From: Alistipes sp.
Lineage (GTDB): Bacteria > Bacteroidota > Bacteroidia > Bacteroidales > Rikenellaceae
Assembly (NCBI GenBank): GCA_017474235.1
Contig: JAFVIB010000018.1
Coordinates: 1 to 64,000, forward strand
Reading direction: 5' to 3'
DNA: 64,000 bases
Shown: positions 8,897-33,947 of the stretch, in pieces
Layout: each line of letters starts with the position of its first letter
Numbering within the stretch: position 1 is the first letter of the stretch
Program-made: the position numbers and the translations under genes
Notes under the pieces: generated by a model
What the model saw: the letters and a program-made list of their open reading frames with translations, nothing else
Told to the model about the DNA's origin: nothing
Database searches by the model: none

Positions 8897-9045
8897 GAGG
8901 TAACCCCAAGTAAAAAGCCACCAACGAGTTCGCAGTTTTTGTTTGTGGTGGATATGCTCTGCATATCGCGATAAAAGGAGTATTTCGAGGATGCTTGCAT
9001 ACTATCGATAATACTCATTTTATCGATAGCAACAAGTTGCACCAC
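8897..9045 (-). repeat. Structured direct repeat R1, copy a
   Basis: About 149 bp, nearly identical to 9134-9284. Read with the plus strand it holds CCACCA/TGGTGG arms, the small hairpin GATATGC-TCT-GCATATC, and a long stem made by CGATAAAA-GAGTATT and AATACTC-TTTTATCG enclosing ATGC-TT-GCAT. Copy b has CCGCCA in the first arm, a change that keeps pairing as G-U. Confidence 0.85.
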
Positions 9046-9060
9046 ATTCATTTTACATTA

Positions 9061-9136
9061 TAGGGCTCGAATGGCTTTAGCCATCACCGAAGGAGTCCCG
9101 TAGTCGCCGCAGGCGGTGCGGGAATAGACGACTGAG
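9061..9136 (-). repeat. Inter-repeat module with tRNA-Lys T-arm fragment
   Basis: Bases 9063-9071 read GGGCTCGAA, the complement of TTCGAGCCC, which is the T-loop and 3' T-stem of the adjacent tRNA-Lys. A hairpin ATGGCT-TT-AGCCAT follows at once, then CATCACCGA and a GC-rich hairpin, ending at GAGGTAACCCC. The same order of parts is seen at 33685-33780. Confidence 0.6.
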
Positions 9137-9284
9137 GTAACCCCAAGTAAAAAGCCGCCAACGAGTTCACGGTTTCTTGTTTGTGGTGGATATGCTCTGC
9201 ATATCACGATAAAAGGAGTATTTCGAGGATGCTTGCATACTATCGATAATACTCATTTTATCGGTAGCAACATCGTTGCACAAC
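9134..9284 (-). repeat. Structured direct repeat R1, copy b
   Basis: Second copy of the repeat, ending 5 bp before the tRNA-Lys terminator region. Differences from copy a are few single bases and one inserted base. The small stem GCAAC...GTTGC at its tRNA-proximal end keeps its arms while the loop differs (GAT here, TT in copy a). Confidence 0.85.
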
Positions 9285-9289
9285 AAACA

Positions 9290-9320
9290 AAAAAAAGACG
9301 ACAATCCGAAAATTGTCGTC
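9290..9320 (-). terminator. tRNA-Lys terminator
   Basis: On the minus strand GACGACAAT and ATTGTCGTC pair perfectly, followed by a run of eight T. The stem begins directly after the encoded CCA of the tRNA. Confidence 0.92.
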
Positions 9321-9396
9321 TGGTGAACTCGCTGGGGCTCGAACCCAGGACCCCAACATTAAAAGTGTTGTGCTCTACCTGCTGAGCTACGAATTC
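9321..9396 (-). tRNA. tRNA-Lys (anticodon TTT)
   Basis: 76 nt with CCA encoded. The acceptor pairs GAATTCG with CGAGTTC (one G-U) plus discriminator A. The D arm is AGCTCAGCAGGTAGAGC, the anticodon loop CTTTTAA gives UUU, and the T arm is CTGGG-TTCGAGC-CCCAG. All the standard cloverleaf positions are filled. Confidence 0.97.
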
Positions 9397-9423
9397 ATCG
9401 CACCAAATCACTTTTTGGTGGTG

Positions 9424-9454
9424 CAAAGATAGAACATTTTTCTTAAATGCCAAA
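9424..9454 (-). promoter_or_regulatory. tRNA-Lys promoter
   Basis: On the minus strand TTTG (9451-9454), 19 bp, then TATCTTTG (9424-9431). The transcript would begin near 9417 and include a short 5' leader that can fold as GCACCA...TGGTGC before the mature tRNA. Confidence 0.8.
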
Positions 9455-9557
9455 ATAAAACGATATTTTTATCATATTTTATATTTGGATAGGCTCTATT
9501 GCTAAGACTTATAAAAGAAACGGCATTCACGGGATGTAACCATCTTAAGAAAGCTCA

Positions 9558-9618
9558 ATACCCCTCTTACTTAGAGCAAGAGGGGTGAGGAGCGTGCGAG
9601 CCGCCCGAAGCGTAACGC
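9558..9618 (-). repeat. Covarying hairpin repeat H, copy 1
   Basis: Read on the minus strand, GTTACGCTTCGGGCGGCTCG is followed by a C-rich spacer and the hairpin CCCCTCTT...AAGAGGGG (9561-9568 with 9578-9585). A second copy at 33312-33371 has the same 20-base start and a hairpin in the same place with a different but still paired stem. The bases before it also resemble each other (TTGTATG then GTTACGC). Confidence 0.7.
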
Positions 9619-9722
9619 GCCCATACAACTTATAATAAACAAGATGATTTTACGGTCTATTGAAAATGGTTTAGGGTATAGTATTAACTACTTTTTTAGA
9701 GCGATACCCCGACAGAGTGTTG

Positions 9723-9750
9723 TTTGTTTACAAAACTTTTTCTAACTTTG
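9723..9750 (+). promoter_or_regulatory. Promoter of 6S-like RNA
   Basis: TTTG at 9723-9726, 16 bp, then TAACTTTG at 9743-9750. A start near 9757 sits just before the outer stem of the RNA described next. Confidence 0.65.
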
Positions 9751-9756
9751 TATTGT

Positions 9757-10010
9757 AATCGGACAGATTACGGACATATTGAAAGTGTTTTCGCAGTCCT
9801 TAATCGAAAATGTGGAAGTTTTCAATGTAGTAGGGCAAACGAACAGCACTCATTTCTTGTATAGCTATGCGGCTATGCGCGATTCGTGCATATATCTCAT
9901 ACTATTCAGGTGTGGGGTATTGCGCGTTTATTACTACATAGGTCTTTCCACAACCTTCGATTAGATAGACGGAAATCAACTCCACACTTTCTTATTGGAC
10001 AATTGCCATT
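9757..10010 (+). ncRNA. ssrS: Rod-shaped RNA, candidate 6S RNA (Bacteroidales-1 type)
   Basis: The segment folds end to end into one rod. GAAAGTGT (9781-9788) pairs with 9984-9991, AATCGAA (9802-9808) with 9956-9962, TGTGGAA (9811-9817) with 9946-9952, ATGTAGTA (9825-9832) with 9932-9939, AAACG (9837-9841) with 9925-9929, and the tip is ATGCGCG-ATT-CGTGCAT (9875-9891). A single long hairpin with bulges and a loose centre is the form of 6S RNA, which binds the RNA polymerase holoenzyme. The strong promoter and lack of a credible reading frame agree. The naming as 6S, and the exact ends, are inference. It could also be read as the leader of the membrane-protein gene that follows. Confidence 0.65.
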
Positions 10011-10043
10011 TGGGAGTTGGGTGGTCTAAAAAACTTAAATAAA

Positions 10044-10961
10044 ATGAAAAAAATCTTGATGGTAATGCTTCAAATGGCATTATTTGTACCTACTCTTTTC
10101 GCACAGACAGAGCAGGTGGTTGAGACCTCTGAGGAGTTGGCTCCTGTGGCAGAGACAAGTGGTTCTGCGGTTTTGGACATTATTCTGCTTGTGCTTATAG
10201 GCGTTGCAGCACTTGCAGTAGTAGGTCACATGATTTACGAGTGTTTTATTCGTAAATCTTTGCGCACAGATTACAGTGTTGATGAATTTGAGGCAGTTCG
10301 CGTTGCCGAAGGTTTAGATGCCGAGATGACCGAAGAGGAGATGAATGTATGTGAGCGTTTGAATGAGTATCAGAATATATGGGAGCAGATACCATCAGAA
10401 GGCGAGCCGTCATACTTACCTATTAAAAAGAAGCAAATAGATAAAGTACAGGTGCTTATCAACGATGCTATTGCAACAAAGCCTACAGATCAGAGTGTTG
10501 TAGATGTTATCAATGAGCTTAACGGCGTCATTAACGATATGTGGAAACGCTCATTTAATGGTTCTAAGACTATGATTGTTATATCTGTACTTGTCGCTGC
10601 GGCACTGTCGTTTATCGTAGAGATGGCTACTCCTGCAATAATGATTGGCACAGGTATCGTATTGTATCTCTTTGCAAGCCGTACACCTATGTTTGTCCTT
10701 ATCCGCAAGGAACTCAAGGGTAGAGGTGGCAGACGAAGCTTCCTTACACTTATTATGGGTGGTCTCTTTGGTGCTGTTGCTGCTGCTCCAACATACAAGA
10801 CAATTACAACATACAGCGATGGTCACGAAGAGACAGAGACTGACAACTCTCAGACGTGGTTTACTTTGCTTATTGCCTTTATAGTCTCTGTACTGTTAGC
10901 AATATTCTTGTGGGCTATTGCTCTTATCAACTATATTCGTAACTATTGGTTGTATTTCTAA
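10044..10961 (+). CDS. Membrane protein of unknown function
   Basis: 305 residues starting at the ATG at 10044 (an upstream in-frame TTG at 10017 lacks support). Residues 1-20 are a signal-like segment ending LFAQ. Membrane segments follow near 42-66 (LDIILLVLIGVAALAVVGHM), about 177-210, and 279-300, with a soluble, helical, acidic domain between about 70 and 170. I do not recognise the family. It stands alone, downstream of the 6S-like RNA and facing a convergent amylase gene. Confidence 0.75.
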   Translation: MKKILMVMLQMALFVPTLFAQTEQVVETSEELAPVAETSGSAVLDIILLVLIGVAALAVVGHMIYECFIRKSLRTDYSVDEFEAVRVAEGLDAEMTEEEMNVCERLNEYQNIWEQIPSEGEPSYLPIKKKQIDKVQVLINDAIATKPTDQSVVDVINELNGVINDMWKRSFNGSKTMIVISVLVAAALSFIVEMATPAIMIGTGIVLYLFASRTPMFVLIRKELKGRGGRRSFLTLIMGGLFGAVAAAPTYKTITTYSDGHEETETDNSQTWFTLLIAFIVSVLLAIFLWAIALINYIRNYWLYF

Positions 10962-10982
10962 TATTAGTCCAAATACACAAAA

Positions 10983-11013
10983 AAACGGCGAGCAGATAAC
11001 CTGTTCGCCGTTT
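10983..11013. terminator. Bidirectional terminator
   Basis: AAACGGCGAGCAG pairs with CTGTTCGCCGTTT (13 bp, one G-U) around a short loop between two convergent genes. Confidence 0.9.
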
Positions 11014-11032
11014 CTTGTGTATATACCACTCA

Positions 11033-13660
11033 TTACTCCCTAACCAGCACTACATAGTCGCCTGCTGCGAGGGTAGTTGAATAGGTTGCAGAGTTGAGTG
11101 TTACGGCTGCGCCTGTAAGTAGATTCTTCCACTCACCCTGAACAGGTACATTGCAAGTAGCATTGCTCTGTGCGTTTGTGAAGTTTGCCATAACGATAAC
11201 ACTGCCGGCATTTGTGCTATAAACAAGTGTCTTAGCTGCCATATTTGCGTCGCCAACCTTCCAAGTGTTGATTGTAGTTGTGCCGTCAAAACCGTACATA
11301 TTCTGATGTGTGGTACGGAAGGTGATAAACTTGCACATAGCGTCGTAGAGGGCTTTGCGGTTTGCATCCTCCATATAATCCCAATGTACAGGTTTTGGTT
11401 CGACCTTCTGACCGTCATCAGAGCCGATTGTAATATCGTAACCCATCTCGCCGAACTGCCACATCATCTTTGGATATGGAGAGAGGAAATGGAGAGCATA
11501 AGCAGCCTGAAGGTGCTTTGAGATGCGCTTCCAATCGCTCTTGACAAAGCTCTGACCGTAAGCTACAGCCTTATAAGCTACGCGCTCCTCATCGTGGTCC
11601 TCGATATTGCCGACATGACCGAATGAGGCAGCACCGCTGAAGTCGCTCTTTCCGCTACCTGTCCAGCCCATAACTGTCTCTGAATATGGAGCTACAGCCT
11701 TACGCCAGAGCAGTATGCCCTTATAGTTTGCCAACTCTGTCTCCTCCTGAGCATCTGAAAGGTGCTCAAGAATAATGTAAGCATCAGGTTCAACCTCGCG
11801 GATAGCATCAGCATAATCCTTGATAATTGCGATTCGAGATGCATCATATTGATTCCAAGTGCCGACATTGCTACCTGAGTTCTTCTGTGTAAGACCCTTT
11901 GAGAGGTCAAAACGATAGCCGTCAATATTGTACTCCTTGAGCCAATACTGGAGCATATCCTTGAAATACTGACGGGTCTTTGGATACTCGTGATTAAAGT
12001 CGTGGAATACATTGAATGGGTGACGAGCAACCTTATTGAAGAATGGATTGCTATTTGAAGCCTGACCGTCAGAGTCGCTCCACATCTTCATCCACGGATG
12101 CAGACCTGTTGCGTGGTTGATAACAATATCGAGAATAACAGCGATACCGCGCTTATGGCACTCGTCGATAAAGGTCTTGTAGTCCTCTACTGTACCGTAT
12201 GCCTTATCGGCTGCGAAGTAGAAGCAAGGGTTATAGCCCCAACTGTTATTACCATCAAACTCCTGAATAGGCATTAGCTCAATAGCGTTGATACCCAAAT
12301 TCTTGATATGGTCGAGCTTTGCAAGCGCAGCCTTCACTGAACGCTCTACAGTAAAGTCACGGAAGAGCAACTCGTAGATAGCAAGGCTATTCTGCTTTGG
12401 ACGCTGGAAATCGGTTACTATCCAATTAAAGTTTGCCGGAGTGGTAGAGAATACAGAGAGTACATCTGTAGCCTTATCTGACGGATATTGACGCAGGTTA
12501 GGGTAGATAGTACCATTCTCGTTAATCCACTTATCGTTCCAAGGGTCGAGAATCTTTGTGCCATAAGGGTCTGCACACTTAATGGTCTTATCGACAAGGA
12601 ATTGGTAAGCCACCTCAGTATTTGCGCTCAGACCATCAATTGTTATCCAAAAATAGTCGCCGTCACGCTTCATCATATACTTATTTGACGGCGCAAAGTC
12701 GTTAAAGTCGCCCAAGACAACAACCTGCTGCTTACCCGGAGCATAGAGAACAATAGTCGCACTATTGCCACTCACCGTAACACCATCCTTCACACCCGCA
12801 GGGCGAGCCTGACTCTCTGTTGCACCCAAAACAGTAGCAGTCACCTCATCAGTAACGCTCTTTGAGCCATCAGAAGCCTCAGCTTTAAATACAACATCCT
12901 CGCAAACACTTGCATTGTATGTGTATGTAATGTCACGACCCTCAGATGTAGCTACAACCTGACTATTCTTGTATAGAGTAACAGATGTTGCAGCCTGTGC
13001 TGTAACAGATACAGTATAATCAACATTCAAATCGAGAATTGCACGGTCAGCAGGGGAGAGAATCTTCACACCAAGACCAGCCTCTGAAAGCTCGATGAAG
13101 ATGTCGTTGCCGTTATCCTTCAACTCTGTAGTACTATCGGCAGAGCGGAATACAAATGCAAGGTGAGTAATCTTCTCAGATGCAGGAACGCCGTAGAATG
13201 CACGCGGACCACCCTTGATAATGAGCTTATAGATGTTTGTCTTAACCTTTGACAGCTTACAAGAGTTGTCGTTTACGCCCCAATCGGTCTTAACATACTT
13301 CCAATCGCCCGTAGATATACTTGCAGAAGTAAGGACTCCGGTATGAGCATAGATATCGCCCTTGAAATTGTCCATCGTTGTACCCTCGGTATTGAGATAG
13401 ACAATCACATCGGTTGTCATATCAGCAGTAATAAACTTCGGGTCGGAAGAGATGAACGGGAATACCTCGTCAGCAGGAGGTGTCTCTCCCGGGTCATTTG
13501 GGTCATCCGTATTATCAGGATTTTCTGGCTCCGGATCCGGTTTCTCCTGCTCCTCTTTATTGACCGGCTTGTTATCCACCAAGTCGCCACCACCTACACA
13601 GGCAGTAGTAAAGAGCAGTGCCGAGCAGAGGGTTAAGATTAGTAAATGAAGTTTTTTCAT
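11033..13660 (-). CDS. Secreted GH13 alpha-amylase-family lipoprotein
   Basis: An 875-residue lipoprotein (lipobox TTAC, Cys21) that would cut alpha-1,4-glucans at the cell surface. After the Cys comes a Pro/Glu/Asp-rich linker (about 25-65). An N-terminal beta region of about 130 residues may bind starch. A CBM48-like beta domain follows near 285-390 (TIVLYAPGKQQVVVLGDFND). The GH13 barrel starts near 430 (LAIYELLFRDFT). Conserved regions are DIVINHA, GYRFDLSKG (nucleophile Asp), IILEHLSD (acid Glu) and NIEDHDEER. A C-terminal beta domain ends the protein. It is not in the plus-strand starch operon but lies close by, so shared use of starch is inferred. Confidence 0.92.
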   Translation of the reverse strand: MKKLHLLILTLCSALLFTTACVGGGDLVDNKPVNKEEQEKPDPEPENPDNTDDPNDPGETPPADEVFPFISSDPKFITADMTTDVIVYLNTEGTTMDNFKGDIYAHTGVLTSASISTGDWKYVKTDWGVNDNSCKLSKVKTNIYKLIIKGGPRAFYGVPASEKITHLAFVFRSADSTTELKDNGNDIFIELSEAGLGVKILSPADRAILDLNVDYTVSVTAQAATSVTLYKNSQVVATSEGRDITYTYNASVCEDVVFKAEASDGSKSVTDEVTATVLGATESQARPAGVKDGVTVSGNSATIVLYAPGKQQVVVLGDFNDFAPSNKYMMKRDGDYFWITIDGLSANTEVAYQFLVDKTIKCADPYGTKILDPWNDKWINENGTIYPNLRQYPSDKATDVLSVFSTTPANFNWIVTDFQRPKQNSLAIYELLFRDFTVERSVKAALAKLDHIKNLGINAIELMPIQEFDGNNSWGYNPCFYFAADKAYGTVEDYKTFIDECHKRGIAVILDIVINHATGLHPWMKMWSDSDGQASNSNPFFNKVARHPFNVFHDFNHEYPKTRQYFKDMLQYWLKEYNIDGYRFDLSKGLTQKNSGSNVGTWNQYDASRIAIIKDYADAIREVEPDAYIILEHLSDAQEETELANYKGILLWRKAVAPYSETVMGWTGSGKSDFSGAASFGHVGNIEDHDEERVAYKAVAYGQSFVKSDWKRISKHLQAAYALHFLSPYPKMMWQFGEMGYDITIGSDDGQKVEPKPVHWDYMEDANRKALYDAMCKFITFRTTHQNMYGFDGTTTINTWKVGDANMAAKTLVYSTNAGSVIVMANFTNAQSNATCNVPVQGEWKNLLTGAAVTLNSATYSTTLAAGDYVVLVRE

Positions 13661-13971
13661 AGTTTATAAATCGGTTTATTAGTTAATAAAATCTTCGAAT
13701 GCAATCGCAAATTTTATTAAAAAATACGAAACTCTGTAACTCTTCGCGCGCGGGCGGTGGTATTAAGGTGTTGAGATGTGAGAAAATGGGAATGAATGGA
13801 TAGCAAAAGAGGCTGTTCTACAACTTTGTTGCGACAGCCTCTTCTCTTAGAAGTTGTATAACAATAGGGATTTCAAGGCTTGCAAGCCCGAAAAAGCGGA
13901 GTTTACTCGTCGTAAATGAGCATTTTGAGGGCAAGTGTAATGCAGAAATCACCTTGTTAAACAGCTTCTAT
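13661..13971. other. Intergenic region between amylase and lytTR gene
   Basis: No gene is seen. It contains the amylase upstream region (13661-13790), a hairpin (13807-13843), and a stretch 13850-13965 with inverted TTTAC/GTAAA arms that looks like a dispersed Bacteroidota intergenic repeat. Confidence 0.55.
13807..13843 (-). terminator. Hairpin after the response-regulator gene
   Basis: AAGAGGCTGT pairs with ACAGCCTCTT. On the minus strand it is followed by TTTTGC, so it can end the two-component transcript, although it lies about 130 bp past the stop codon. Confidence 0.65.
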
Positions 13972-14745
13972 TTACTGTTGTTCGCCACTCTCAAGCCATA
14001 GCAAAAAATCTGCCGTCTTGCTGCGACTGACAAATGAGTCGATGTTGCTTGCAGGACGAAGTGTCAGCTTTATTCTGTTACCAAGTCGTTTTGCGACATT
14101 TCCAACAGCCTTATCCGAAACGATACAACTACGAGAGATGCGGAAGAAGTGTGAAGGATTAAGCTCTTTACTAATAGTATCGAGCGAGATGTCCATAAGG
14201 TATTTCTCTGCGCCGACAGTCATCAGATATGTACAGCCCTCCTCGGAGTAGAAGTATGCGATATTGGAGGTATCGACAAGGATAATCTTGTCGTTATATC
14301 TGAGCAGATAACGCTGCTTGTAACGACGAATCTCACTATTGACAGCACTTCTGAGCGCAGTAGTATCAATATTTCTGCCTTGTAATACCCGCTTCTCACG
14401 ACAACGCTCCAGCGCACGAGCAAGGTCATTGATACTCACAGGTTTAAGCAGGTAGTCGATAGAGTTTACCTCAAATGCTTTGATGGCATAGTTATTATAC
14501 GCCGTAACGATAATGACAGGGCAGGCAATCTTTATCCTGTCAAAAATATCAAAACATTTACCATCAGACAGCTCTACATCCATAAAGATAACATCAGGGT
14601 ACAGAGTAGTACTCTCTAACCAGCTCACACTCTTATCTACACTATCCAGAACGCCACAAATACTGATGTCGTCAAAATTTGTTGTTAAAGCTCTTACAAG
14701 TGCCTGCTGTGCAACAAGCTCATCCTCAATAATAAGAACATTCAT
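13972..14745 (-). CDS. LytTR-family response regulator
   Basis: 257 residues. The receiver domain (1-120) has the acidic pair in IIEDE, the phosphoacceptor Asp in VIFMDVELSDG (about residue 55), Thr in VIIVTAYNNYA and the Lys in YLLKPV. After a linker, a LytTR DNA-binding domain spans about 150-250 (RYLLRYNDKIILVDTSNIAYFY, then HFFRISRSCIV). LytTR proteins bind pairs of short direct repeats. It is transcribed 12 bp after the sensor kinase gene and away from the starch operon. No SusR-type regulator is present in the window, so this pair is the nearest candidate controller of the starch operon (inference). Confidence 0.93.
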   Translation of the reverse strand: MNVLIIEDELVAQQALVRALTTNFDDISICGVLDSVDKSVSWLESTTLYPDVIFMDVELSDGKCFDIFDRIKIACPVIIVTAYNNYAIKAFEVNSIDYLLKPVSINDLARALERCREKRVLQGRNIDTTALRSAVNSEIRRYKQRYLLRYNDKIILVDTSNIAYFYSEEGCTYLMTVGAEKYLMDISLDTISKELNPSHFFRISRSCIVSDKAVGNVAKRLGNRIKLTLRPASNIDSFVSRSKTADFLLWLESGEQQ

Positions 14746-14757
14746 AGGTTTGGTTGG

Positions 14758-16122: not shown

Positions 16123-16146
16123 TAATTAAATTCCTTAAAAACAGTT

Positions 16147-16178
16147 CAAATTTAATACAAAAATCTCGTTTCTACAAA
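16147..16178 (-). promoter_or_regulatory. Promoter of the two-component operon
   Basis: On the minus strand TTTG (16175-16178), 20 bp, then TAAATTTG (16147-16154), placing the start about 18 nt before the sensor ATG. Confidence 0.7.
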
Positions 16179-16309
16179 CAATTTGTAAATATTTCATAAA
16201 TTCATTGCTAAAAAAGTACCCGAAAAACCAATCCGCTCAACTCCTTTTTTATACATTTCAACACCTAAATACTACCGCTCGCGCGAGGAGATTTTCTCAT
16301 ATTAAAAAT

Positions 16310-16350
16310 ATTTTCAAATTTTGTCTATTGACAGCATGCAATTTGAAAAT
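16310..16350. promoter_or_regulatory. Inverted repeat upstream of the starch operon
   Basis: ATTTTCAAATT (16310-16320) and AATTTGAAAAT (16340-16350) are a perfect 11-bp inverted pair 19 bp apart, ending 23 bp before the first operon gene. It could be an operator or a leader hairpin. No exact TAnnTTTG box was found nearby. Confidence 0.5.
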
Positions 16351-16373
16351 TTTTAAGAAATTTTAATAATTAT

Positions 16374-17681: not shown

Positions 17682-17720
17682 ATATCCATATATTAACATT
17701 TATTAACCAACAAAATTTTT

Positions 17721-20700
17721 ATGAAAAGACTTCTAATGTGTGTGGCAGTTGCGCTTCTATGCGTAATTACCCCGCCACTTGCTCTGGCACAGGGCAAGGA
17801 GGTAAAGGGTGTCGTTGTCGATGCAAGCGGTCTTCCGGTTATCGGAGCAACCGTTGCCGAAGTTGGCACAGTCAATGGTACGATGACAGACATTCAGGGT
17901 CAGTATGCACTGACCGTTGAGGGCAACGATTCAGTTGTCGAGATTAGTTTTATCGGTTTCAAGTCTGTACAGTTGGTAGCAAGTTCTACCGAGCTGGCTC
18001 GCGTAACCCTTATCGAGGACGCGATGGGTCTTGATGAGGTAGTTGTTATCGGTTATGGTTCTGTTAAGAAGAACGATATGACCGGTTCAGTTATCGCAGT
18101 TAAGGCTGAGGAGTTAAACCGTGGTGCGCTCACATCTCCACAGGAGCTTCTCCGTGGTAAGGTTCCGGGCGTAAATATCGTATCCGGTAACGGTGCTCCG
18201 GGTGCAGGTGCTGAGATTCGTATCCGTGGTGGTGCATCTCTCTCTGCAAACAACGACCCACTGATTGTTATCGACGGTGTGCCTGTTGCAAAGGAGGCTG
18301 GTGTAGGTATGTCAAACGGCTTGGCTACTGTAAACCCTAACGATATCGAGTCATTTACCGTACTCAAGGATGCATCTGCAACAGCTATCTACGGTTCTCG
18401 TGCATCTAACGGTGTCATCCTCATCACTACAAAGAAGGGTACAAGTGGCGCTCCTCGCGTATCTTATAATGGTAGTGTGTCTGTAAAGCACAACTACAAC
18501 ACTATGGATATGATGAACGCAGAGCAGTTAAAGAATCATGTTCTTACATTCGCTCCTGACTTGGCAGAGAAGGCTAACTCACTCTTTGGTACTGCTGATA
18601 CTAATTGGCAGAATGAGATTTTCCGTCTCGGTGTTGCTACAGACCACAATGTATCAATCACAGGTGCTGCTGCAAAGGATAAGATGCCTTACCGTGCATC
18701 AGTAGGTTATGTTTACGATGGTGGTACTGTTAAGAACTCTGACAACCAGCGTGCAAACATCGATATCAGCTTGGCTCCTAAGTTCCTCAAGGATCACCTT
18801 TCACTCAATTTCAACGCAAAGGGTATCTATAACCGCGGTAATTATGTGGATGGTGGTGTTATCGGCTCTGCTGTATATTTCGACCCAACTCAGAATGTAC
18901 ACAACTACACAGCTGATGGTGCTATTGATAAGGAGCTTTATAACGGCTACTACAACTGGGCTTCTGACCTTACAGCTGTAAACCCATTCTCAATGCTCTA
19001 TGACCAGTGGGACACTAACGAGTCTCTGCGTGCATTGGGTAACATTCAGCTCGACTATAAGGTACACGGTTTCGAGGATTTGAGCTTCAATCTCAACTTG
19101 GGTCTCGATATTACCTCTACAAATGGTAATAAGGGTAACAGACCTGGCTCTATCTTCTCAAGCCGCGATAATGGCGATAGCGGTATCTATAAGAACCTCG
19201 GTCGCTACTCAACATACAACAACCTCCACTACAACGAGTTGTTGGAGTTCTACGCAAACTATAAGAAGGAGATTGGCGTACACAGCATTAACGCAATGCT
19301 CGGTTACTCTTGGTCAAAGAACCACTCAGAGACTACCAGCTATAACTATGGTCGTGTAGCTCCTGCTGACGCAACTGTTGCTCTGTTCGACAGTAAGCTC
19401 ATTAGCGACTCTTATAGCGCAACTCGCAATGCACTCGTATCTTTCTACGGTCGTATCAACTACTCAATCGACTCTCGCTATCTGTTCACATTCACAATGC
19501 GTGCCGATGGTTCATCTCGCTTTGTAAAGAAGAATCGTTGGGGTTACTTCCCATCAGCAGCTGCAGCTTGGAATATCGCACAGGAGAGCTGGCTTAAGGA
19601 TTCTGAGACTGTATCAGCCCTCAAGCTCCGTTTGGGTTGGGGTGTTACAGGTCAGCAGGAGTTTGGTGAGAACTATGCAGCTGTTCAGTATGCAATTATC
19701 TCTCAGGACCCTACTACTCAGTACCCTCTCGGTCCAAATGTAGGCGACTTCTACTTCCCTGTTCGCCCTCAGGCATACAACGAGAGCCTTAAGTGGGAGG
19801 AGACAACTACTTACAATGTCGGTTTGGACTTCGGTTTCTTGAGAGGTCGTATCAACGGTAGTGTTGATGCTTACTATCGCTACACCGATGACCTTCTCTC
19901 TTATGTAGATGTACCACTCGGTGTAAACTTCTCTAATAAGGTATATCAGAATATCGGTGCTATGGAGAATAAGGGTGTCGAGGTATCTCTCAACTTTATT
20001 CCTGTAGAGACTGAGGATTGGAACCTCCAGATTGGTCTGAACGGTACTTGGCAGCAGACAAAGATTACTGAGCTCCCTGGTCCATATATCGACCTCGGTG
20101 GTGCAGGTGGCGGAACAGGTAACACCGCACAGCGTCACATGGTAGGCTATGCTCCACATACCTTCTACCTCTGGCAGCAGGTTTATGATCAGGATGGTAA
20201 TCCTATCCAGAACGCTATTGTTGATCGCGATCTTGATGGTCAGATTACAAATACAGACCGTTATATGACAAACAAGAGTCCTAACCCTGACTTCTTCTAC
20301 GGTGTAAGCCTCAAGTTGGCTTATAAGAATTGGGACTTCGGTTTCAACGGTCACGGCACTGTTGGCAACTATATGTTCAACGATGTATTGCGTGGTTCGG
20401 CAACTACAAACTATCGTGATATTATCGACAAGGGTTACCTCGTAAACACTCAGGCAGCAGGTGCTAAGTATGGCTTCAAGCAGAGCTCTACAACACCACA
20501 GAGCCTGTCTGATATGTTCCTTGAGGATGCTTCATTCTTCCGTCTTGACGATATTAACCTCGGTTATACATTCACAAACATTGGTCAGTGGGGTACTCAG
20601 ATTCGCGTTGCTGCAGGTGTTCAGAATGTATTCGTACTTACAAAGTATAGCGGTCTTGATCCTGAGACCTCTGTAGCCGGCGGTATTGACGGTAACATCT

Positions 20701-20747: not shown

Positions 20748-20761
20748 TTGAGAGAATGTTT

Positions 20762-22375: not shown

Positions 22376-22399
22376 TATTAACACTAAAAATTAGAAACA

Positions 22400-23530: not shown

Positions 23531-23537
23531 AACATCG

Positions 23538-23563
23538 AGGTGGTAACGCTCGAGTTACCACCT
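23538..23563 (+). terminator. Intercistronic hairpin after susE
   Basis: AGGTGGTAAC pairs perfectly with GTTACCACCT around GCTCGA. There is no clear T run, so it probably acts as an mRNA end stabiliser or a weak attenuator inside the operon. Confidence 0.7.
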
Positions 23564-23583
23564 TATAATAAAAAGATAAAATT

Positions 23584-25191: not shown

Positions 25192-25206
25192 TTCTTACAA
25201 TATTTG

Positions 25207-25234
25207 ACCGGAGAGCTTTGACCGGCTCTCCGGT
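25207..25234 (+). terminator. Intercistronic hairpin before GH13 genes
   Basis: ACCGGAGAGC pairs perfectly with GCTCTCCGGT. No T run follows. It separates the transport/binding genes from the enzyme genes of the operon. Confidence 0.7.
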
Positions 25235-25266
25235 TCCTAAATAAAAATTATTAACCAACAAATACT

Positions 25267-26535: not shown

Positions 26536-26536
26536 T

Positions 26537-28420
26537 ATGAAGAAGTTATTTATAGTTTTAGCAGCACTTGGAGTTATCGCTTGCACAGGTAACTCATCTT
26601 TTAATGCCGACAGTGTAGCAGATGCTGATGGTCAGATTGCTCGCGTAGAGCCACTGAGCTGGTGGACAGGTCTTAAGACTCCTCTTCAGCTTATGATTAA
26701 TGGCGAGAATATCTCGCAGTATAATGTTGCCATTGAGGGTGGCAATGGGGTAGAGATTACTGCCGTACACAAGGCAGATAGTCCAAACTACCTCTTTGTA
26801 GATGTCGCTGTAGATGATAGCGCAAAAGAGGGAACATACTATCTTGTATTTACAAAGGGTGAGGAGAGCTTTAAGTATCCTTATACCATCAACTCTCGTC
26901 GTAAGGGCTCTGCAGAGCGTTGTGGCTTTACTACGGCAGATGCAATTTACCTGCTTATGCCTGACCGCTTTGGCAACGGTAACCCTGATAACGACTCTAC
27001 ACCTTGCACAACTGAAAAGGCTGCTCGTAATGAGTTCTTTGGTCGTCACGGTGGCGATTTGCAGGGTATGATTAATGGTTTGGACTATATTGCATCTCTC
27101 GGTGCAACTACAATTTGGCCCACTCCACTACTTTTGGATAACGAGCCTCGCGAGTCTTACCACGGCTATGCTTGCGGTGACTACTACCATATCGACCCTC
27201 GTTTTGGCGATAATGAGCTCTACAAGGAGTTTGTTGCTCAGGCTCACAGCCGCGATTTGAAGGTTATTATGGATGTTGTAACCAACCATTGCGGAGTATC
27301 TCACTGGTGGATGAACGACCTGCCATTTAATGATTGGGTGCATGTATTCCCTGAGTACACAGGTACAAATGTATGCTTCTCAACCAATATGGACCCTAAC
27401 GCTTCTGCTTATGACCTTAATCTTCAGGAGAGCGGCTGGTTTGTTCCATCAATGCCTGATATGAACCTCAATAACGAGTTTGTTCTCAACTACTTCAAGC
27501 AGTGGGCTGTATGGTGGATTGAGTATGCAGACCTTGACGGCTTCCGTGTAGATACATATCCATATAACGAGAAGGAGCCAATGAGTCAGTGGTGCAAGTC
27601 TGTTATGGCTGAGTATCCGAATATCAATATTGTAGGCGAGTGCTGGACATCATCTATCCCTCAGCTTGCATATTGGCAGGGTGGTAATGCAAATAAGGAT
27701 GGTTTTGACACAAACCTGCGCTCTGTTATGGACTTCCCACTACAGGAGGCTATCTGCCACGCACTCTCTTGTGACAATCCGGGTTGGGGTCAGGGTATGA
27801 CTCGTGTATATGACTGTCTGTCGCACGACTTTGTATATCACGACCTTGACAATATGTTGATTTTTACAAATAACCACGATACAACCCGTATTGGCGATGT
27901 TATCAACCGTAACCCGGGTCGTGCAAAGATTGGTCTTGCAATGCTGGCAACTATGCGCGGTATTCCTCAGATTTTCTACGGCGAGGAGATGATGCTCTGC
28001 TCTGCCGACCTCAGTCAGGGTCACGGTGGTCTGAGAATTGACTTCCCGGGCGGCTGGGCTGGCGATAAAGTCAATCTGCTGACAGCAGAGGGTCGTAAGG
28101 GTCAGAATAAGGAGCTGTTTGACTTCTCTTCTCGTCTTTTCAATTGGCGTAAGAGCAAGGAGGTTATCCACAACGGTCAGACGATGCACTTTATGACCCG
28201 TGATAACACCTACGCATACTTCCGTTATAACGATACAGATGCAGTATTTGTATATATCAACAATAGTGCAGAGACTAAGAATATTCCGTGGTCAAACTAC
28301 GCAGAGATTGGCTCTACACTCAAGGAGGGTCGTTGTGTTATAACCGGCAAGGAGGCTGTTGTAGATAACAATACTAAGGTTGCCCCTTACAGCGTTATTA
28401 TTGTGGAATATAAGAGATAA
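26537..28420 (+). CDS. GH13 neopullulanase/cyclomaltodextrinase-like lipoprotein
   Basis: A 627-residue GH13 protein resembling SusA. The lipobox is VIAC (Cys16). An N-terminal immunoglobulin-like domain covers about 30-125 (RVEPLSWWTGLKTPLQLMI). The barrel begins IYLLMPDRFGNGNPDND, typical of neopullulanases. Catalytic regions are VIMDVVTNHCG, GFRVDTYPYNE (nucleophile), NIVGECWTSS (acid) and FTNNHDTTRI. It would degrade maltodextrins, pullulan or cyclodextrins to short sugars, probably in the periplasm. It overlaps the gene order amylase-this-GH97 with gaps of 1 and 6 bp, so coupled translation is likely. Confidence 0.93.
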   Translation: MKKLFIVLAALGVIACTGNSSFNADSVADADGQIARVEPLSWWTGLKTPLQLMINGENISQYNVAIEGGNGVEITAVHKADSPNYLFVDVAVDDSAKEGTYYLVFTKGEESFKYPYTINSRRKGSAERCGFTTADAIYLLMPDRFGNGNPDNDSTPCTTEKAARNEFFGRHGGDLQGMINGLDYIASLGATTIWPTPLLLDNEPRESYHGYACGDYYHIDPRFGDNELYKEFVAQAHSRDLKVIMDVVTNHCGVSHWWMNDLPFNDWVHVFPEYTGTNVCFSTNMDPNASAYDLNLQESGWFVPSMPDMNLNNEFVLNYFKQWAVWWIEYADLDGFRVDTYPYNEKEPMSQWCKSVMAEYPNINIVGECWTSSIPQLAYWQGGNANKDGFDTNLRSVMDFPLQEAICHALSCDNPGWGQGMTRVYDCLSHDFVYHDLDNMLIFTNNHDTTRIGDVINRNPGRAKIGLAMLATMRGIPQIFYGEEMMLCSADLSQGHGGLRIDFPGGWAGDKVNLLTAEGRKGQNKELFDFSSRLFNWRKSKEVIHNGQTMHFMTRDNTYAYFRYNDTDAVFVYINNSAETKNIPWSNYAEIGSTLKEGRCVITGKEAVVDNNTKVAPYSVIIVEYKR

Positions 28421-30622
<2,202 letters not shown>

Positions 30623-30661
30623 ATAACGCTTTCAGCCGAGGTTAGGTTGGTTTTTATTTGG

Positions 30662-30697
30662 AGAGAGGGGCAAAGTATTGCTCCTCTCTAATTTTTG
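30662..30697 (+). terminator. Terminator of the starch operon
   Basis: AGAGAGGGGCAA pairs with TTGCTCCTCTCT (12 bp, one G-U) around AGTA, followed by AATTTTTG. Confidence 0.88.
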
Positions 30698-30700
30698 TAT

Positions 30701-30708
30701 TATCTTTG
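30701..30708 (+). promoter_or_regulatory. -7 box (TATCTTTG) of symporter gene
   Basis: An exact TAnnTTTG match only 7 bp upstream of the ATG at 30716, with a weak TTG at 30678-30680 at the -33 place. The transcript would have almost no leader. Confidence 0.65.
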
Positions 30709-30715
30709 TGTAACT

Positions 30716-31933
30716 ATGAAGAAGATAATCACAAATCTCGGTTTTTGGATTCTTGTAGCGATGGCTGCGGGAGTTGTGGCAGGCGTTGCTATGGGCGAGG
30801 GTGCAGCGATATTTGCACCTCTTGGAGCGCTATTTATCCAACTTATTAAGATGCTTGTAGTGCCACTTGTGGCTGTATCTATTATTTCCGGAGCTGCATC
30901 GCTCGGCAGTAGTCGCTCAGCAGGCAAGATAGGCGTTGTAAGTATTGGATATATAATGCTGACAACTGTTATCTCTATCATTATCGCTATCTGTGCGGGT
31001 CTGATATTCAAGCCCGGGGCAGGGCTGAGTGCCGAGAGCATCAGAGCGATAAATGCAGTAGCAGCCTCTACAGACGGTGGAGCATCAACACCCGGTTTTT
31101 GGGAGACTACAATCGGGATGATTCCGGCAAATCCTATTCAGGCGTTTGCGGAGGGAAATATATTGCAAATTATCGTTTTTGGTCTCTTCCTCGGCTTTGG
31201 TATTGCAGCTATGGAGCAGGGTAAAAGAGATAAGGTTGTTGCAGGGCTGAACTACATTCTCGAGGCTCTGATTTGGTGTATCGGAAAGGTTATGCTTGTA
31301 GCCCCTCTCGGAGTGTTTGGTCTTATGGCAGAGGCGACAGGCACATTTGGCTTTGATGTACTTTTAAAGGTGGCAAATCTGCTATGGGTTGATCTGTTGG
31401 CTGTGCTTGTTATGGGGTTGGCTATATACCCGATGACTATCGGGCTGTTCTCAAGAGTGGGTATTATTACCTTCTTTAAGGAGATGATACGACCGCAGAT
31501 TATAGCATTCTCGACAGCATCATCTATGGCTACACTCCCTGTAACTATGGCAGCTTGTGACAGAATGGGCATCTCAAAACAGGTATCCGGCTTTGTTGCG
31601 CCACTTGGTGCTACTATTAATATGACAGGTAATGCTATCTACTATACACTTGTAGCGATATTCTTTGCACAATTTTATGGCATAGAACTTACTATGGCGC
31701 AGTATGTGGCGATAGCTATCACAGCATCGCTCGGCTCTATAGGACAAGCGGGTGTTCCGGGTCCTACACTTATGGTTGTGGCAGTGCTTGTCAGCGCAGG
31801 TATTCCGATAGAGGGTCTGCCACTGCTATATGCTCTTGACCGTGTATTTGATATGATTCGTACAGTGCTTAATATTACGGGGGATGCGGCATGCGCAGCC
31901 GTTACCGACCGTTTTGCTGCAGAGAATGAATAG
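30716..31933 (+). CDS. Dicarboxylate/amino acid:cation symporter (DAACS family)
   Basis: A 405-residue GltP/DctA-type transporter with about eight membrane helices and two re-entrant hairpins. Family motifs include LIKMLVVPLVAVSIISGAAS (about 43-62), the Ser-rich hairpin AFSTASSMATLPVTM (about 264-278, here STASS for the usual SSSS), the MTGNA helix (about 303-307) and the C-terminal DRVFDMIRTVLNITGDA (about 377-393). Inward transport of glutamate, aspartate or C4-dicarboxylates with Na+ or H+ is inferred. The start ATG at 30716 lies right after the promoter; a TTG seven codons upstream would be inside it. The last codons overlap the next gene by 8 bp. Confidence 0.93.
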   Translation: MKKIITNLGFWILVAMAAGVVAGVAMGEGAAIFAPLGALFIQLIKMLVVPLVAVSIISGAASLGSSRSAGKIGVVSIGYIMLTTVISIIIAICAGLIFKPGAGLSAESIRAINAVAASTDGGASTPGFWETTIGMIPANPIQAFAEGNILQIIVFGLFLGFGIAAMEQGKRDKVVAGLNYILEALIWCIGKVMLVAPLGVFGLMAEATGTFGFDVLLKVANLLWVDLLAVLVMGLAIYPMTIGLFSRVGIITFFKEMIRPQIIAFSTASSMATLPVTMAACDRMGISKQVSGFVAPLGATINMTGNAIYYTLVAIFFAQFYGIELTMAQYVAIAITASLGSIGQAGVPGPTLMVVAVLVSAGIPIEGLPLLYALDRVFDMIRTVLNITGDAACAAVTDRFAAENE

Positions 31934-32336
31934 TGCCGTAGAGATACTCCACAAACAGAGCTGCTCCCTTGTTATTCAGAGCAGGGGAGAGGTGCATACA
32001 TTCTTCAATAGGGGTATCAAAGACCTATATAACATCTATACTACCGATAAATCGCTGCTATACGGAGCTGTTATTGCCGATAAAGTGGTTGGCAGAGCCG
32101 CTGCTGCACTGATGATTTTGGGTGGGGTAGAGCGCATCTATGCCGATACGATAAGTCAGCTTGCCCTTGAGTTGTTAGCAACAACAGATATTGTTGTCGA
32201 ATATGCAGAGGTTGTGCCCCATATAATCAATCGCACAAAAACCGATTTATGCCCGATGGAGCGTGCCACGCGCCATTTGACAGATTTAAACGATATTTGC
32301 AGAGCAATTGACGATTTTGTACGGTCGTTGGCTTAG
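31926..32336 (+). CDS. DUF1893 protein
   Basis: 136 residues, matching the short DUF1893 family of anaerobes: SLVIQSRGEVHTFFNRGIKDLY, then GAVIADKVVGRAAAALMILGG (about 55-75, the most conserved part), and VPHIINRTKTDLCPMER. The family resembles the cytidine-deaminase fold in its helical core, but its function is not known. The ATG overlaps the symporter stop by 8 bp, which indicates translational coupling and a possible link to that transport system. An earlier in-frame start would lie inside the symporter gene. Confidence 0.85.
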   Translation: MNSAVEILHKQSCSLVIQSRGEVHTFFNRGIKDLYNIYTTDKSLLYGAVIADKVVGRAAAALMILGGVERIYADTISQLALELLATTDIVVEYAEVVPHIINRTKTDLCPMERATRHLTDLNDICRAIDDFVRSLA

Positions 32337-32366
32337 AGTTTGTATCTCCACAATAAAAAAGGAGAT

Positions 32367-32975
32367 ATGAAACATTCTTTTCTTGAGGCTTTAGAGAATC
32401 GCCGCAGCTATTATAGCATAGGAGCGGCAATGAGCGTATCCCAACAGGATATTGTCAAAACAATAGACCGCATAATGCTTGCTACACCATCTGCCTATAA
32501 TAGCCAATCAAGCAGGGTAGTGATATTGTTCGGCATACATCATATATGCCTATGGGGTATTGTAAAACAGACATTGGCAAAGATTGTCACTCCGGAGGCT
32601 TTTATCGGCACGCGCGAGAAGATAGATAACTGCTTTGCAGCAGGTTGTGGAACTATACTGTTCTATGAGGATATGAAGGTTGTAGAGCAGATGAAGGTCG
32701 ATTTTGCCACCTATGCCGATAAGTTTGACACCTATGCAGAACACACATCTGCGATGCACCAGCTCGCCATTTGGACGGCACTTGAGGATATGGGATTTGG
32801 CGCAACTCTTCAACACTATAATCCACTTATCGATACACAGGTAGCAGAGCAGTGGAACATTGACAAAAGCTGGCGGCTTATCGCTCAAATGCCATTTGGA
32901 ACGCCATTGACAACACCCGGAACAAAGGCTCAACACCTACCTCTAAACGAGCGAAGATTGGTTTTCAGTGATTAA
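32367..32975 (+). CDS. Nitroreductase-family flavoprotein
   Basis: A 202-residue FMN-dependent oxidoreductase of the nitroreductase family (YdgI/NfsB-like). Seen are the N-terminal ENRRSYYSIG (about 9-18, FMN phosphate contact), PSAYNSQSSRVVIL, GCGTILFYED, HQLAIWTALEDMGFGATLQHYNP (residues written around the conserved GxGxxLQHYNP) and a short C-terminus. Such enzymes reduce nitro compounds or quinones with NAD(P)H; the natural substrate is unknown. I start at ATG 32367 because a good ribosome site (GGAGAT) sits just before it. Confidence 0.9.
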   Translation: MKHSFLEALENRRSYYSIGAAMSVSQQDIVKTIDRIMLATPSAYNSQSSRVVILFGIHHICLWGIVKQTLAKIVTPEAFIGTREKIDNCFAAGCGTILFYEDMKVVEQMKVDFATYADKFDTYAEHTSAMHQLAIWTALEDMGFGATLQHYNPLIDTQVAEQWNIDKSWRLIAQMPFGTPLTTPGTKAQHLPLNERRLVFSD

Positions 32976-33010
32976 TCGTGCAAATAGTTGCTTTATATTG
33001 ATTTTATTTA

Positions 33011-33018
33011 TACCTTTG
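33011..33018 (+). promoter_or_regulatory. -7 box (TACCTTTG) of small peptide gene
   Basis: An exact TAnnTTTG match 33 bp upstream of the ATG at 33052, lying just past the end of the nitroreductase gene. Confidence 0.6.
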
Positions 33019-33051
33019 CTTACAGAGTGTATAATTTCAAAAGCGACAGTA

Positions 33052-33180
33052 ATGAAAAGAGGTGCATATACTAATCCAACATTGGAGGCTTATACTGTAA
33101 AAGTAGAGCTCGGCTTTAATGTTTCAGACCCTACTAATAGTGTAGAGGATCCCGTTGTAGCCGATACTCAGCAGTGGTAA
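33052..33180 (+). CDS. Small peptide (42 aa), family S, member 1
   Basis: MKRGAYTNPTLEAYTVKVEL opens a 42-residue product that ends EDPVVADTQQW. It resembles the 49-residue product at 55927: both have a basic start, Pro then Leu-Glu or Leu-Met, a Tyr, Val-Glu-x-Gly-Phe, a Ser, then Glu-Asp-Pro and a late Gln-Trp. It has its own TAnnTTTG box and its own terminator, which supports a real gene. There is no signal peptide or membrane segment. Small products of this build are frequent in Bacteroidales genomes in my experience, but I know of no function. Confidence 0.7.
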   Translation: MKRGAYTNPTLEAYTVKVELGFNVSDPTNSVEDPVVADTQQW

Positions 33181-33203
33181 ATTCCTGTAACCATCCACAT
33201 CTA

Positions 33204-33230
33204 AGAGATTGCATCAGCAGTCTCTTTTTT
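33204..33230 (+). terminator. Terminator of small peptide gene
   Basis: AGAGATTGC pairs with GCAGTCTCT (one G-U) around ATCA, then six T. Confidence 0.88.
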
Positions 33231-33293
33231 ATTGCCGTATTTAGAAAATCGTCTTTTTTTTGACATGTGATTTGGATATTAAAAATATACTTA

Positions 33294-33301
33294 CTACTTT
33301 T
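33294..33301 (+). promoter_or_regulatory. TACTTTTG box before hairpin repeat H
   Basis: Matches TAnnTTTG and would start a transcript about 4 bp before the hairpin repeat at 33312, which could make that repeat a small RNA. Confidence 0.4.
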
Positions 33302-33311
33302 GTATGTCTGT

Positions 33312-33371
33312 GTTACGCTTCGGGCGGCTCGGACACCCCTTGCCCTTCTTGCTAAAAGTAGGAAGGGCATT
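33312..33371 (+). repeat. Covarying hairpin repeat H, copy 2
   Basis: Begins GTTACGCTTCGGGCGGCTCG, identical to copy 1 at 9558-9618 (reverse strand), and then forms GCCCTTC (33342-33348) with GAAGGGC (33362-33368). Copy 1 uses CCCCTCTT with AAGAGGGG in the same place, so the stem bases changed but pairing was kept. Confidence 0.7.
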
Positions 33372-33382
33372 GATTTTAGAAT

Positions 33383-33490
33383 CTACAAATCTGAAAACTC
33401 GGATGAAAAAGTAAGCCTCTGAGCATTTATATCTACGAATGGAAATAGAGATATTAGAGTGGTAATGATTACAAGATAGAGCCGTTTCAT
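33383..33490 (-). pseudogene. Truncated exported-protein remnant (35 codons)
   Basis: From an ATG at 33490 the product starts MKRLYLVIITTLISLFPFV and continues DINAQ, a good Bacteroidota signal peptide ending in AQ, but a stop comes after only 11 further residues (RLTFSSEFSDL). It looks like the 5' end of a secreted-protein gene cut off by rearrangement next to the repeats. A short secreted peptide cannot be excluded. No clear promoter was found. Confidence 0.4.
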
Positions 33491-33602
33491 AGATAAGTTT
33501 TTTATGACAACGAGCCTAATATTGTAATTAGTATGTTGATAAGGTATTTTTTCGTCCTTCACCGGAATTTTACATCCCCACCGACTTTTGCAGGTGATCC
33601 TA

Positions 33603-33681
33603 AGTTGTGTTGATTGGCAGCTGTGGGCTTGCACACATAGCCGGCAATCAACATAACATAGCCGATGTAATCGGCTGACCT
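33603..33681 (-). repeat. Structured direct repeat R2, copy a
   Basis: 79 bp, identical to 33843-33921, exactly 240 bp away. The outer stem is GTTGTGTTGATTG with CAATCAACATAAC (13 bp, one G-U), with inner GGC...GCC arms, and a second hairpin AGCCGAT-GTA-ATCGGCT follows. Confidence 0.92.
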
Positions 33682-33684
33682 AAG

Positions 33685-33780
33685 AGGGGACTCGAATGTG
33701 TGCTATGCACATCATCATCGACGAGGTAGCGCAGTCAAGCTATGCTTGGTGCGCGAACAACCGAGGAGATAACCCCTCCT
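33685..33780 (-). repeat. Inter-repeat module with tRNA-Asp T-arm fragment
   Basis: Bases 33685-33696 are AGGGGACTCGAA, an exact 12-base match to the tRNA-Asp gene at 33992-34003 (complement TTCGAGTCCCCT, the T-loop and 3' T-stem). Then come the hairpins TGTGC-TAT-GCACA and AAGC-TAT-GCTT inside GCGC...GCGC, ending near GATAACCCC. The order of parts mirrors 9061-9136. Confidence 0.65.
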
Positions 33781-33842
33781 AAAGTTTGAGTCGCCTACGG
33801 ACTATTGTTCTATTTTCGGGCGAGGGCTATCGCAAAGCGATG

Positions 33843-33921: not shown

Positions 33922-33947
33922 CGCCCTGACCTTGCTCAAGTAAAGAC

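Follow-up and report, generated by a model that had tools for sequence, protein, structure and literature searches.

Repeated hairpin units behind tRNA and tmRNA genes of an Alistipes genome

Gene-less hairpin units stand in arrays on the 3' side of tRNA genes in a genome of Alistipes sp. (assembly GCA_017474235.1, here G000; 1.97 Mb in 50 contigs, 98.9% complete), and they do so genome-wide. The starting point was a stretch of 64,000 nucleotides from contig JAFVIB010000018.1 (contig C50; hereafter the window), in which an earlier note had seen repeated units behind all three genes with a tRNA-like 3' end. ARAGORN finds three stable RNAs in the window, tRNA-Lys, tRNA-Asp and the transfer-messenger RNA (tmRNA), and all three are indeed followed by such units. 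The 6S RNA that had also been placed in the window has no Rfam match at the gathering threshold. The explanation that we tentatively prefer, as possible although short of probable, is that the arrays are non-coding cassettes that restore the tRNA and undergo recombination at a TT core within T-loops.

Units behind tRNA genes and their plan

The 3' sides of 36 distinct tRNA and tmRNA gene sequences of G000 were read (RF00005 gives 37 tRNA matches, one of them weak, and two identical tRNA-Val genes were merged). We use X for the tRNA from C56 to its 3' end and X' for an inverted copy of X. The earlier note had proposed a comparison of self and non-self T-arm matches, for which the T-loop-to-3'-end string of each gene was compared with up to 800 nt downstream of every gene. 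The comparison gave an excess of self matches: 12/36 genes have a self score of at least 11, where 0.37 are expected from non-self pairs, and the mean self score is 10.0 versus 6.78 ± 0.27, a value reached in none of 20,000 permutations. The passing genes are Thr(GGT), Thr(CGT), Val, Gly(GCC), Pro, Asp, Gln(TTG), Lys(CTT), His, Cys, Gln(CTG) and Ser(GGA), and none of the 12 self matches falls inside a neighbouring tRNA gene. Among the genes of the window, Asp passes with a score of 12; Lys (9) and tmRNA (8) stay below the threshold because their distal copies contain only the start of the tRNA 3' half.

The test was replicated in three congeners (35, 34 and 36 RF00005 hits), with 10/27, 4/24 and 8/26 genes passing; one of the eight matches in the last is the neighbouring tRNA-Pro gene, which leaves seven. 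Genes with too little fetched 3' DNA were left out of these counts, and the shares are raised somewhat because the loci left out include the Thr-Tyr-Gly-Trp cluster, where G000 is free of arrays. A control genome from another genus of the family, with loci covered for 30/43 RF00005 hits, has 0/31 self matches, direct and inverted. Inverted self copies with a score of at least 20 are found at 12/35 genes of G000 (0.56 expected) and at 27/100 in a wider set (1.54 expected) that includes loci fetched for containing modules.

By reading, 3' units are present at 22 of the 36 distinct genes of G000. These comprise the 12 test-positive genes, together with Lys(TTT), tmRNA, Leu(TAG), Leu(CAG), Leu(TAA), Ser(CGA), Ser(GCT) and Arg(CCG), and with one Met and Gly(CCC) that have an inverted copy only. 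The 14 genes without units include four tRNAs adjoining tuf. At Gly(CCC), the inverted T-arm copy of about 25 nt lies directly behind the terminator, and there is no module (L013). Contigs C5 and C36 of G000 both end within what is apparently a single tRNA-Arg(CCG) array, and tRNA-adjacent repeats may break draft assemblies.

Read in tRNA orientation, a full unit consists of X, a trailer with terminator hairpin and T-run, a long stem, small hairpins, X', a pseudo T-arm with a structured module, and X again, with the final X of variable length. The long stem pairs the terminator T-run with a downstream A-run and carries small apical and side hairpins; the small-loop hairpins that the earlier note described can be seen by eye in the arrays. 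The 5' strand of the pseudo T-stem ends in GGTT and the module in -TT. Units measure about 150–280 nt and have no genes inside. Both halves of the host T-arm flank the module, and it therefore sits between T55 and C56, at the junction GG/TT...CA/TT/CGA. The sequences thus show that a full unit brings a copy of the host's X with a terminator, a fold-back and a module between T55 and C56.

In most genes, predicted folds have an outer X:X' stem, within which lie the hairpin of the terminator, a second, long arm and, in many cases, one more hairpin, so that the fold-back is modelled as a cloverleaf-like junction. We compared the region 60–260 nt downstream of each gene with the region at 800–1000 nt, using 20 composition shuffles each. 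Folds with z < -4 occur in 10/31 near regions of G000, 8/25 of G028, 2/23 of G006 and 3/24 of G056 (the latter three being other genomes of the genus), and in one of 31 far regions of G000 and none of G028, G006 and G056. The T-stem 5' strand before the module also resembles that of the host tRNA: over 71 modules, the first three nucleotides match in 1.87 of 3 positions versus 1.05 ± 0.085, and 0/5,000 permutations are as high. This T-stem match led us to replace an earlier idea, in which the stem before the module mimics the acceptor, with the pseudo T-arm reading. An invertible terminator, with X' as a spare functional 3' end, was rejected because X' often mismatches the acceptor stem.

Modules in the pseudo T-loop

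The earlier note had aligned the modules at 9061–9136 and 33685–33780 in order, and this alignment holds. Its suggestion that one element type sits at all three genes holds for Lys and Asp, which share a module that we call class 1; the module at tmRNA belongs to a different class with the same plan. Class 1 is described by a structural model, R1, built from nine G000 copies and containing 16 pairs, of which seven are changed on both sides (covariation). G000 has 10 R1 copies, nine of them behind tRNA genes and one on a contig end, where it continues the Arg(CCG) array.

Class 1 modules are restricted to the genus in the samples searched, which contain one genome per species, mostly draft metagenome-assembled genomes (MAGs). 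R1 copies occur in 16/61 genomes of the genus. Among 393 genomes of the order, searched with strict filters, the one positive is the window's own genome, with no congener among the matches listed. The class 1 pattern was found in 33 named stretches, 31 of which are Alistipes sp. or Rikenellaceae bacterium, one 'Bacteroidales bacterium' and one Fonsibacter, the last of which we take for chance. A pattern scan of viral contigs gave 0 matches.

On 80 loci (duplicated loci and the Fonsibacter locus left out), R1 gave 96 matches, from which three were excluded (two repeats and one partial); there are 81 distinct copies. As many as 71/81 lie 3' of a tRNA or tmRNA gene, on the same strand and at most 469 nt away, and their hosts comprise 16 tRNA kinds and tmRNA. 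Six of the remaining copies are at contig or locus edges and four elsewhere: one (L090) next to an integrase gene and a fragment of a tRNA-Glu 3' end, and three dispersed in genome G029. The start is GGTTA in 70/81 copies and CATTA in 7/81. Most pairs are maintained through Watson-Crick changes in an alignment of 77 distinct rows, which was made to R1 and is hence biased towards the model. Two positions are dominated by G-U (48 and 74 of 77 rows) and fit a fold of the sense strand. Over the whole module, G-U outnumbers A-C by 127 to 19; the other 14 pairs have G-U 5 and A-C 19, the two positions having been left out after inspection.

Further module classes, 2 to 5, were defined by eye. Class 2 modules at His and Ser, class 3 modules at Leu and tmRNA and a short module at Gln(CTG) all occupy the pseudo T-loop position, and so does a class 5 module (GGTTGAGCCGATA...TATCGGCTC...GTT) at several tRNAs of G056.

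At groEL of G029 (L100, with gene ends at positions 1257 and 1810), a class 1 module and a cloverleaf lie between two copies of the final 121 bp of the gene, 114/121 identical, and the distal copy is followed by its own terminator. This is one of three dispersed G029 repeats with a class 1 module at protein genes (L097, L099 and L100), two of which share the cloverleaf, with a plan as in the tRNA fold-backs. The orphan module near the tRNA-Glu 3' fragment and a tyrosine integrase gene (L090; L220 2888–4596, in G003) looks like an array displaced by an island.

Signs of movement, candidate enzymes and rival explanations

Modules are chained at CATT/ACC, TT to TT, at four loci (L080, L086, L072 and L123, behind Val, Asp, Met and Arg), and at least three of the four chains contain different module variants. 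Similar module cores recur at different tRNAs of one genome: the core of the G028 Val module is 92% identical to an Asp copy and 90% to a Met-type-X copy, with left flanks at background (0.50–0.55). By reading, distal tRNA 3' copies bear terminators different from the proximal ones at Cys and at Lys(CTT), the latter with three different ones. The two identical tRNA-Val genes of G000 differ in what follows them, one having a fold-back and X' only and the other also a module and X; the fold-back and inverted copy of the former (L005, contig C35) are nearly the same as those of the C24 gene, with no module or distal X. At Gln(TTG), G000, G003 and G029 have the full array, G028 has a remnant and G006 has none. 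In sequence, module ends meet at TT, modules can be chained from TT to TT, and similar cores are found at different tRNAs of one genome.

The cassette explanation would account for these features as follows. A site-specific recombinase acting in trans would join units at the TT core, and the tRNA 3' half and terminator carried by each unit would keep the tRNA working after each event, as in islands that target tRNA genes. The hairpin module would be the recombination site, folded as DNA, and tandem copies would grow and shrink through ordinary slippage. Among the roles proposed in the earlier note, a T-arm-capturing mobile element and attachment sites are the best supported. A broader version, in which T-loops are general recombination platforms where folded-DNA modules are captured at TT, chained and shuttled between tRNA loci while the host 3' half and terminator are re-issued, and of which E. 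coli tyrT is the one-locus case, seems to us rather unlikely.

The large serine integrases found in the genus are the candidates for this enzyme, and many of their genes run into tRNA 3' ends; alternatively, a tyrosine recombinase might act on a folded strand, as the integron integrase does on attC. PF00239 is found in 27/61 genomes of the genus, often as an adjacent pair of one small and one large enzyme. In 14 of 20 PF00239 stretches that were read, a large serine recombinase open reading frame (ORF) or fragment overlaps the 3' end of tRNA-Leu, Met or Lys convergently, so that the tRNA encodes the last residues of the protein (L217–L219, L221–L228 and L234–L236, two of them fragments; the Pfam analysis of these large ORFs covered L217 and L223). 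A small serine recombinase lies about 0.3–0.7 kb upstream at 12 of these 14 loci. One further stretch (tRNA-Ser, G027) has a serine recombinase pair behind a class 2 unit, and no tRNA was found in the other five. Behind ten serine-recombinase islands (about 220 kb), a search with the first 14 nt of X, allowing one mismatch, found no direct copy; the only copies were inverted and belong to class 3 arrays in G057 and G006, which does not place the crossover of these islands. GGTTCGATAAT occurs near both island ends in G057 and may merely encode an NYRT/DYRT motif. Two serine-recombinase islands at tRNA-Leu(TAG) (L240, about 10500–11700; L244, about 18500–20000) apparently separate the tRNA from an older class 3 array, and a small conserved ORF (...DYRT...LK.VEFI.WL) runs from the array into the island.

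G000 itself has five tyrosine recombinases: one XerD-like, one XerC-like, one beside an apparent type I restriction specificity gene (L176, contig C12), where the pair is a possible phase-variable shufflon, and two others. All five fall below the cut-off of the integron integrase model TIGR02249 (best 146 of 265 bits); the XerD-like enzyme passes NF040815 (225.6 of 220), described as 'site-specific tyrosine recombinase/integron integrase'. Serine integrases exchange strands over a 2-bp core, and the TT core fits this family. A folded site, in turn, fits integron-like tyrosine recombinases (PMC2727003). On these data, either family may supply the enzyme.

Several observations weigh against recombining cassettes. 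No recombinase was seen adjoining the arrays of G000, no tRNA lies in the fetched stretches of the five G000 tyrosine recombinases, and G000 has no PF00239, PF02371, PF00078 or PF01797 matches. PF00239 does not track class 1, being present in 8/16 genomes with modules and 19/45 without, and the 20 stretches that were read were chosen by hand, partly because a tRNA was near. A hairpin site is unexpected for serine integrases, which normally act on duplex DNA. The match of each unit's inverted copy to its own tRNA is not explained by integration alone, and many terminal units break off at arbitrary places. Evidence that modules have moved from tRNA to tRNA is soft: the G028 Asp and Met-type copies that resemble the Val module lack the GGTT start, and the Val and Asp modules of G029 (94% identical) share their left flank too (0.86), because another module precedes both. 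The neighbouring gene differs at the G006 Gln(TTG) locus that lacks the array. No excised circle or strain-level polymorphism was seen in these samples of one genome per species, mostly draft MAGs.

The main rival is duplication in place, without a dedicated enzyme. Terminator palindromes would trigger template switching and slippage that copy X both inverted and direct, and the modules would be inert passengers, spread by occasional gene conversion. We consider this unlikely, although much in the arrays agrees with it: fold-backs without strand bias, partial terminal units, near-perfect tandem copies (Asp 100%, tmRNA 96%), the absence of a recombinase at the arrays and genes with an inverted copy alone (Gly(CCC), one Met and the second Val among them). 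The two hybrid G028 copies without a GGTT start weigh for it too, and against the cassette explanation and its broader version. However, a covarying module at the exact T-loop position of 16 tRNA kinds and tmRNA needs a specific reaction, as do the TT chaining of different modules and the differing distal terminators. It is improbable, in our view, that the units are scars or satellites of islands, that is, recombined attL/attR pairs of departed integrase islands and hence debris instead of an active system. Serine integrase genes do lie at the 3' ends of tRNA-Leu, Met and Lys, beside Ser-type class 2 units (L230 and L231) and ahead of the class 3 arrays at L240 and L244, and L090 has the displaced appearance noted above, but one elaborate plan with covarying modules is unlike random island ends, and similar modules stand at different tRNAs.

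A functional RNA, transcribed past the terminator and serving as decoy, processing signal or switch through pairing of X' with the tRNA 3' half, is quite improbable. The strong folds near G000 genes, the conserved module structure, the two G-U-dominated positions with the G-U excess that favours the sense strand, and the annotation of the equivalent position in E. coli as the small RNA (sRNA) RttR would all suit it. Against this, sense folds are no better than antisense folds (the sense strand is more stable in only 13/35 G000 regions), the ratio of G-T to A-C mismatches is 14:10 in X:X' and 38:27 in helices, and the other 14 module pairs, chosen after the two positions had been seen, show no such G-U excess. 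The switch in particular was down-weighted because the fold-backs lack strand bias. A retroelement, or an HUH-type element resembling repetitive extragenic palindromic (REP) sequences and their associated tyrosine transposases (RAYT), with a borrowed enzyme, is highly improbable. X' could pair with the 3' end of the tRNA from about nt 57 on, as a retroviral primer-binding site does, and RVT_1, found in 20/61 genomes of the genus, is commoner in those with class 1 (9/16) than in those without (11/45). In the alignments read, however, X' mostly matches the gene and not the mature CCA end, and RVT_1 has no match in G000 (10 modules) or G028 (11 modules), two of the three module-richest genomes, on which ground reverse transcription primed at X' was rejected. 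HUH/REP transposition was set aside likewise, with Y1 transposase in 0/61 genomes of the genus, and so was an IS110 or bridge-RNA element, whose transposase is in 2/61 genomes, the window's not among them.

Related systems and the arrays of the window

The earlier note knew of no described system of this kind, which stands for many tRNA genes at once; at a single locus, the rttR and tpr repeats at E. coli tyrT/tyrV have a like anatomy. In the E. coli K-12 record, the one locus compared here, rttR and tpr are annotated behind tyrV. There, 178-nt tandem units lie 3' of the tRNA, whose last 19 nt, starting at A58, recur as direct copies at +159, +337 and +515, and each unit holds an inverted 10-nt copy (GGGGAAGGAT) and, by reading, a T-stem-like AAGGTTCGA, a hairpin module and then AATCC. 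The Alistipes arrays, like rtT-type repeats, are tandem 3' units that each end in a copy of that tRNA's 3' end. They differ in that the E. coli unit as a whole folds no better than shuffles (z -0.4), its copy includes the CCA, its module is by eye unlike classes 1–5, and the repeats carry an annotated sRNA and a small protein. The rtT repeats give a stable RNA product that is released from the tRNA precursor. Bosl and Kersten 1991 and Altman et al. 1981 are reportedly the papers on the E. coli sRNA and the protamine-like protein. Both are cited in PMC11623569.

Islands that target tRNA genes are similar in that the tRNA 3' half is restored and, by reading, the displaced copy has another terminator; the Alistipes units, too, are bounded on either side by a directly repeated tRNA 3' end. 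In contrast to islands, these units are about 150–280 nt long and stacked, they encode no integrase, and many tRNA genes have them. Such genes are favourite landing sites of islands, usually explained integrase by integrase. Clusters of attC sites lacking integron integrases (CALINs) may do without an integrase, and integron attC arrays and CALINs share with the Alistipes arrays the cassette-like chaining at a short core and, across the module classes as judged by eye, a fold kept more than its sequence. The Alistipes cassettes, however, are gene-less, their platform is the T-loop of a tRNA, and no TIGR02249 match reaches the cut-off. PMC2727003 gives extrahelical bases, an unpaired central spacer and bottom-strand use as features of attC; the class 1 module is a covarying hairpin that starts at GGTT. 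Other families were also compared. Casposons, with a Cas1-solo integrase and terminal inverted repeats, came into consideration on account of tRNA targeting and duplication of the target. REP sequences and bacterial interspersed mosaic elements (BIMEs), miniature inverted-repeat transposable elements (MITEs) and the Rickettsia palindromic elements are short, palindromic, non-coding and multi-copy, as are the Alistipes units, which differ from them in being tRNA-bound, in containing copies of the host tRNA and in the absence of Y1 from the genus sample.

Literature searches found no report of 3' repeats at many tRNA genes of one bacterium, which is weak evidence, subscription journals being thinly covered. 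To our knowledge, the arrangement is known at one locus, in E. coli, and its use at many tRNAs with a conserved T-loop module appears undescribed. A gene-less family of units at many loci could expose an unrecognised route by which small DNA units spread, and with the exact junction (GG/TT module TT/CGA), reaction, enzyme and site are all open to direct tests. For the long-known E. coli tyrT repeats there is now a family for comparison, which suggests that part of the tyrT 'RNA gene' may be a mobile DNA site. Arrays at the ends of draft contigs may also mislead finders of att sites and islands.

Table 1 Positions of the array parts in the window
Feature	Positions	Strand	Remarks
tRNA-Lys(TTT)	9321–9396	-	X = 9321–9341
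Terminator hairpin and T-run directly behind tRNA-Lys; first fold-back arm	9289–9320	-	
Lys fold-back: T-run stem, apical hairpins, complementary A-run; ends in X' (9153–9170)	9153–9288	-	inverted self score 26
GGGGTT, Lys: 5' strand of the pseudo T-stem, with the TT of the second T-arm	9139–9144	-	
Class 1 module (ACCTC...CATT) in pseudo T-loop, Lys	9070–9138	-	R1 match 9063–9142, E 8.7e-16
Direct copy of X start (CGAGCCC), Lys	9063–9069	-	
Second Lys unit, 3'-truncated: fold-back, X' (8916–8933), module start	8897–9055	-	ends in GGTTACCTC (8897–8905)
tRNA-Asp(GTC)	33981–34057	-	X = 33981–34001
Terminator behind tRNA-Asp	33948–33980	-	
Asp fold-back: X' (33788–33798), pseudo T-stem 5' strand AGGGG and TT	33771–33947	-	inverted self score 22
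Class 1 module, Asp	33695–33770	-	R1 match 33688–33774, E 3.2e-15
Direct copy of X start (CGAGTCCCC), Asp	33686–33694	-	
Second Asp unit, truncated	33603–33681	-	79 nt identical to 33843–33921
tmRNA, tag AMHSLLNFLGKLA	43748–44148	+	X = 44130–44148
tmRNA terminator	44152–44179	+	
First tmRNA unit, class 3-like module	44163–44396	+	T-arm copy at end, 44380–44389
Second tmRNA unit, preceded by its own, different terminator-like hairpin	44433–44666	+	96% identical to first; T-arm copy 44650–44659

The three arrays of the window (Table 1) consist of tandem units. At Lys, parts of 99 and 42 nt recur at a spacing of 237–238 nt; at Asp, the repeated part recurs at 240 nt with 100% identity; and at tmRNA, 234 nt recur at 270 nt. 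The Lys and tmRNA arrays contain no ORF of at least 80 aa, and an 83-aa ORF overlaps the Asp array at its distal end.

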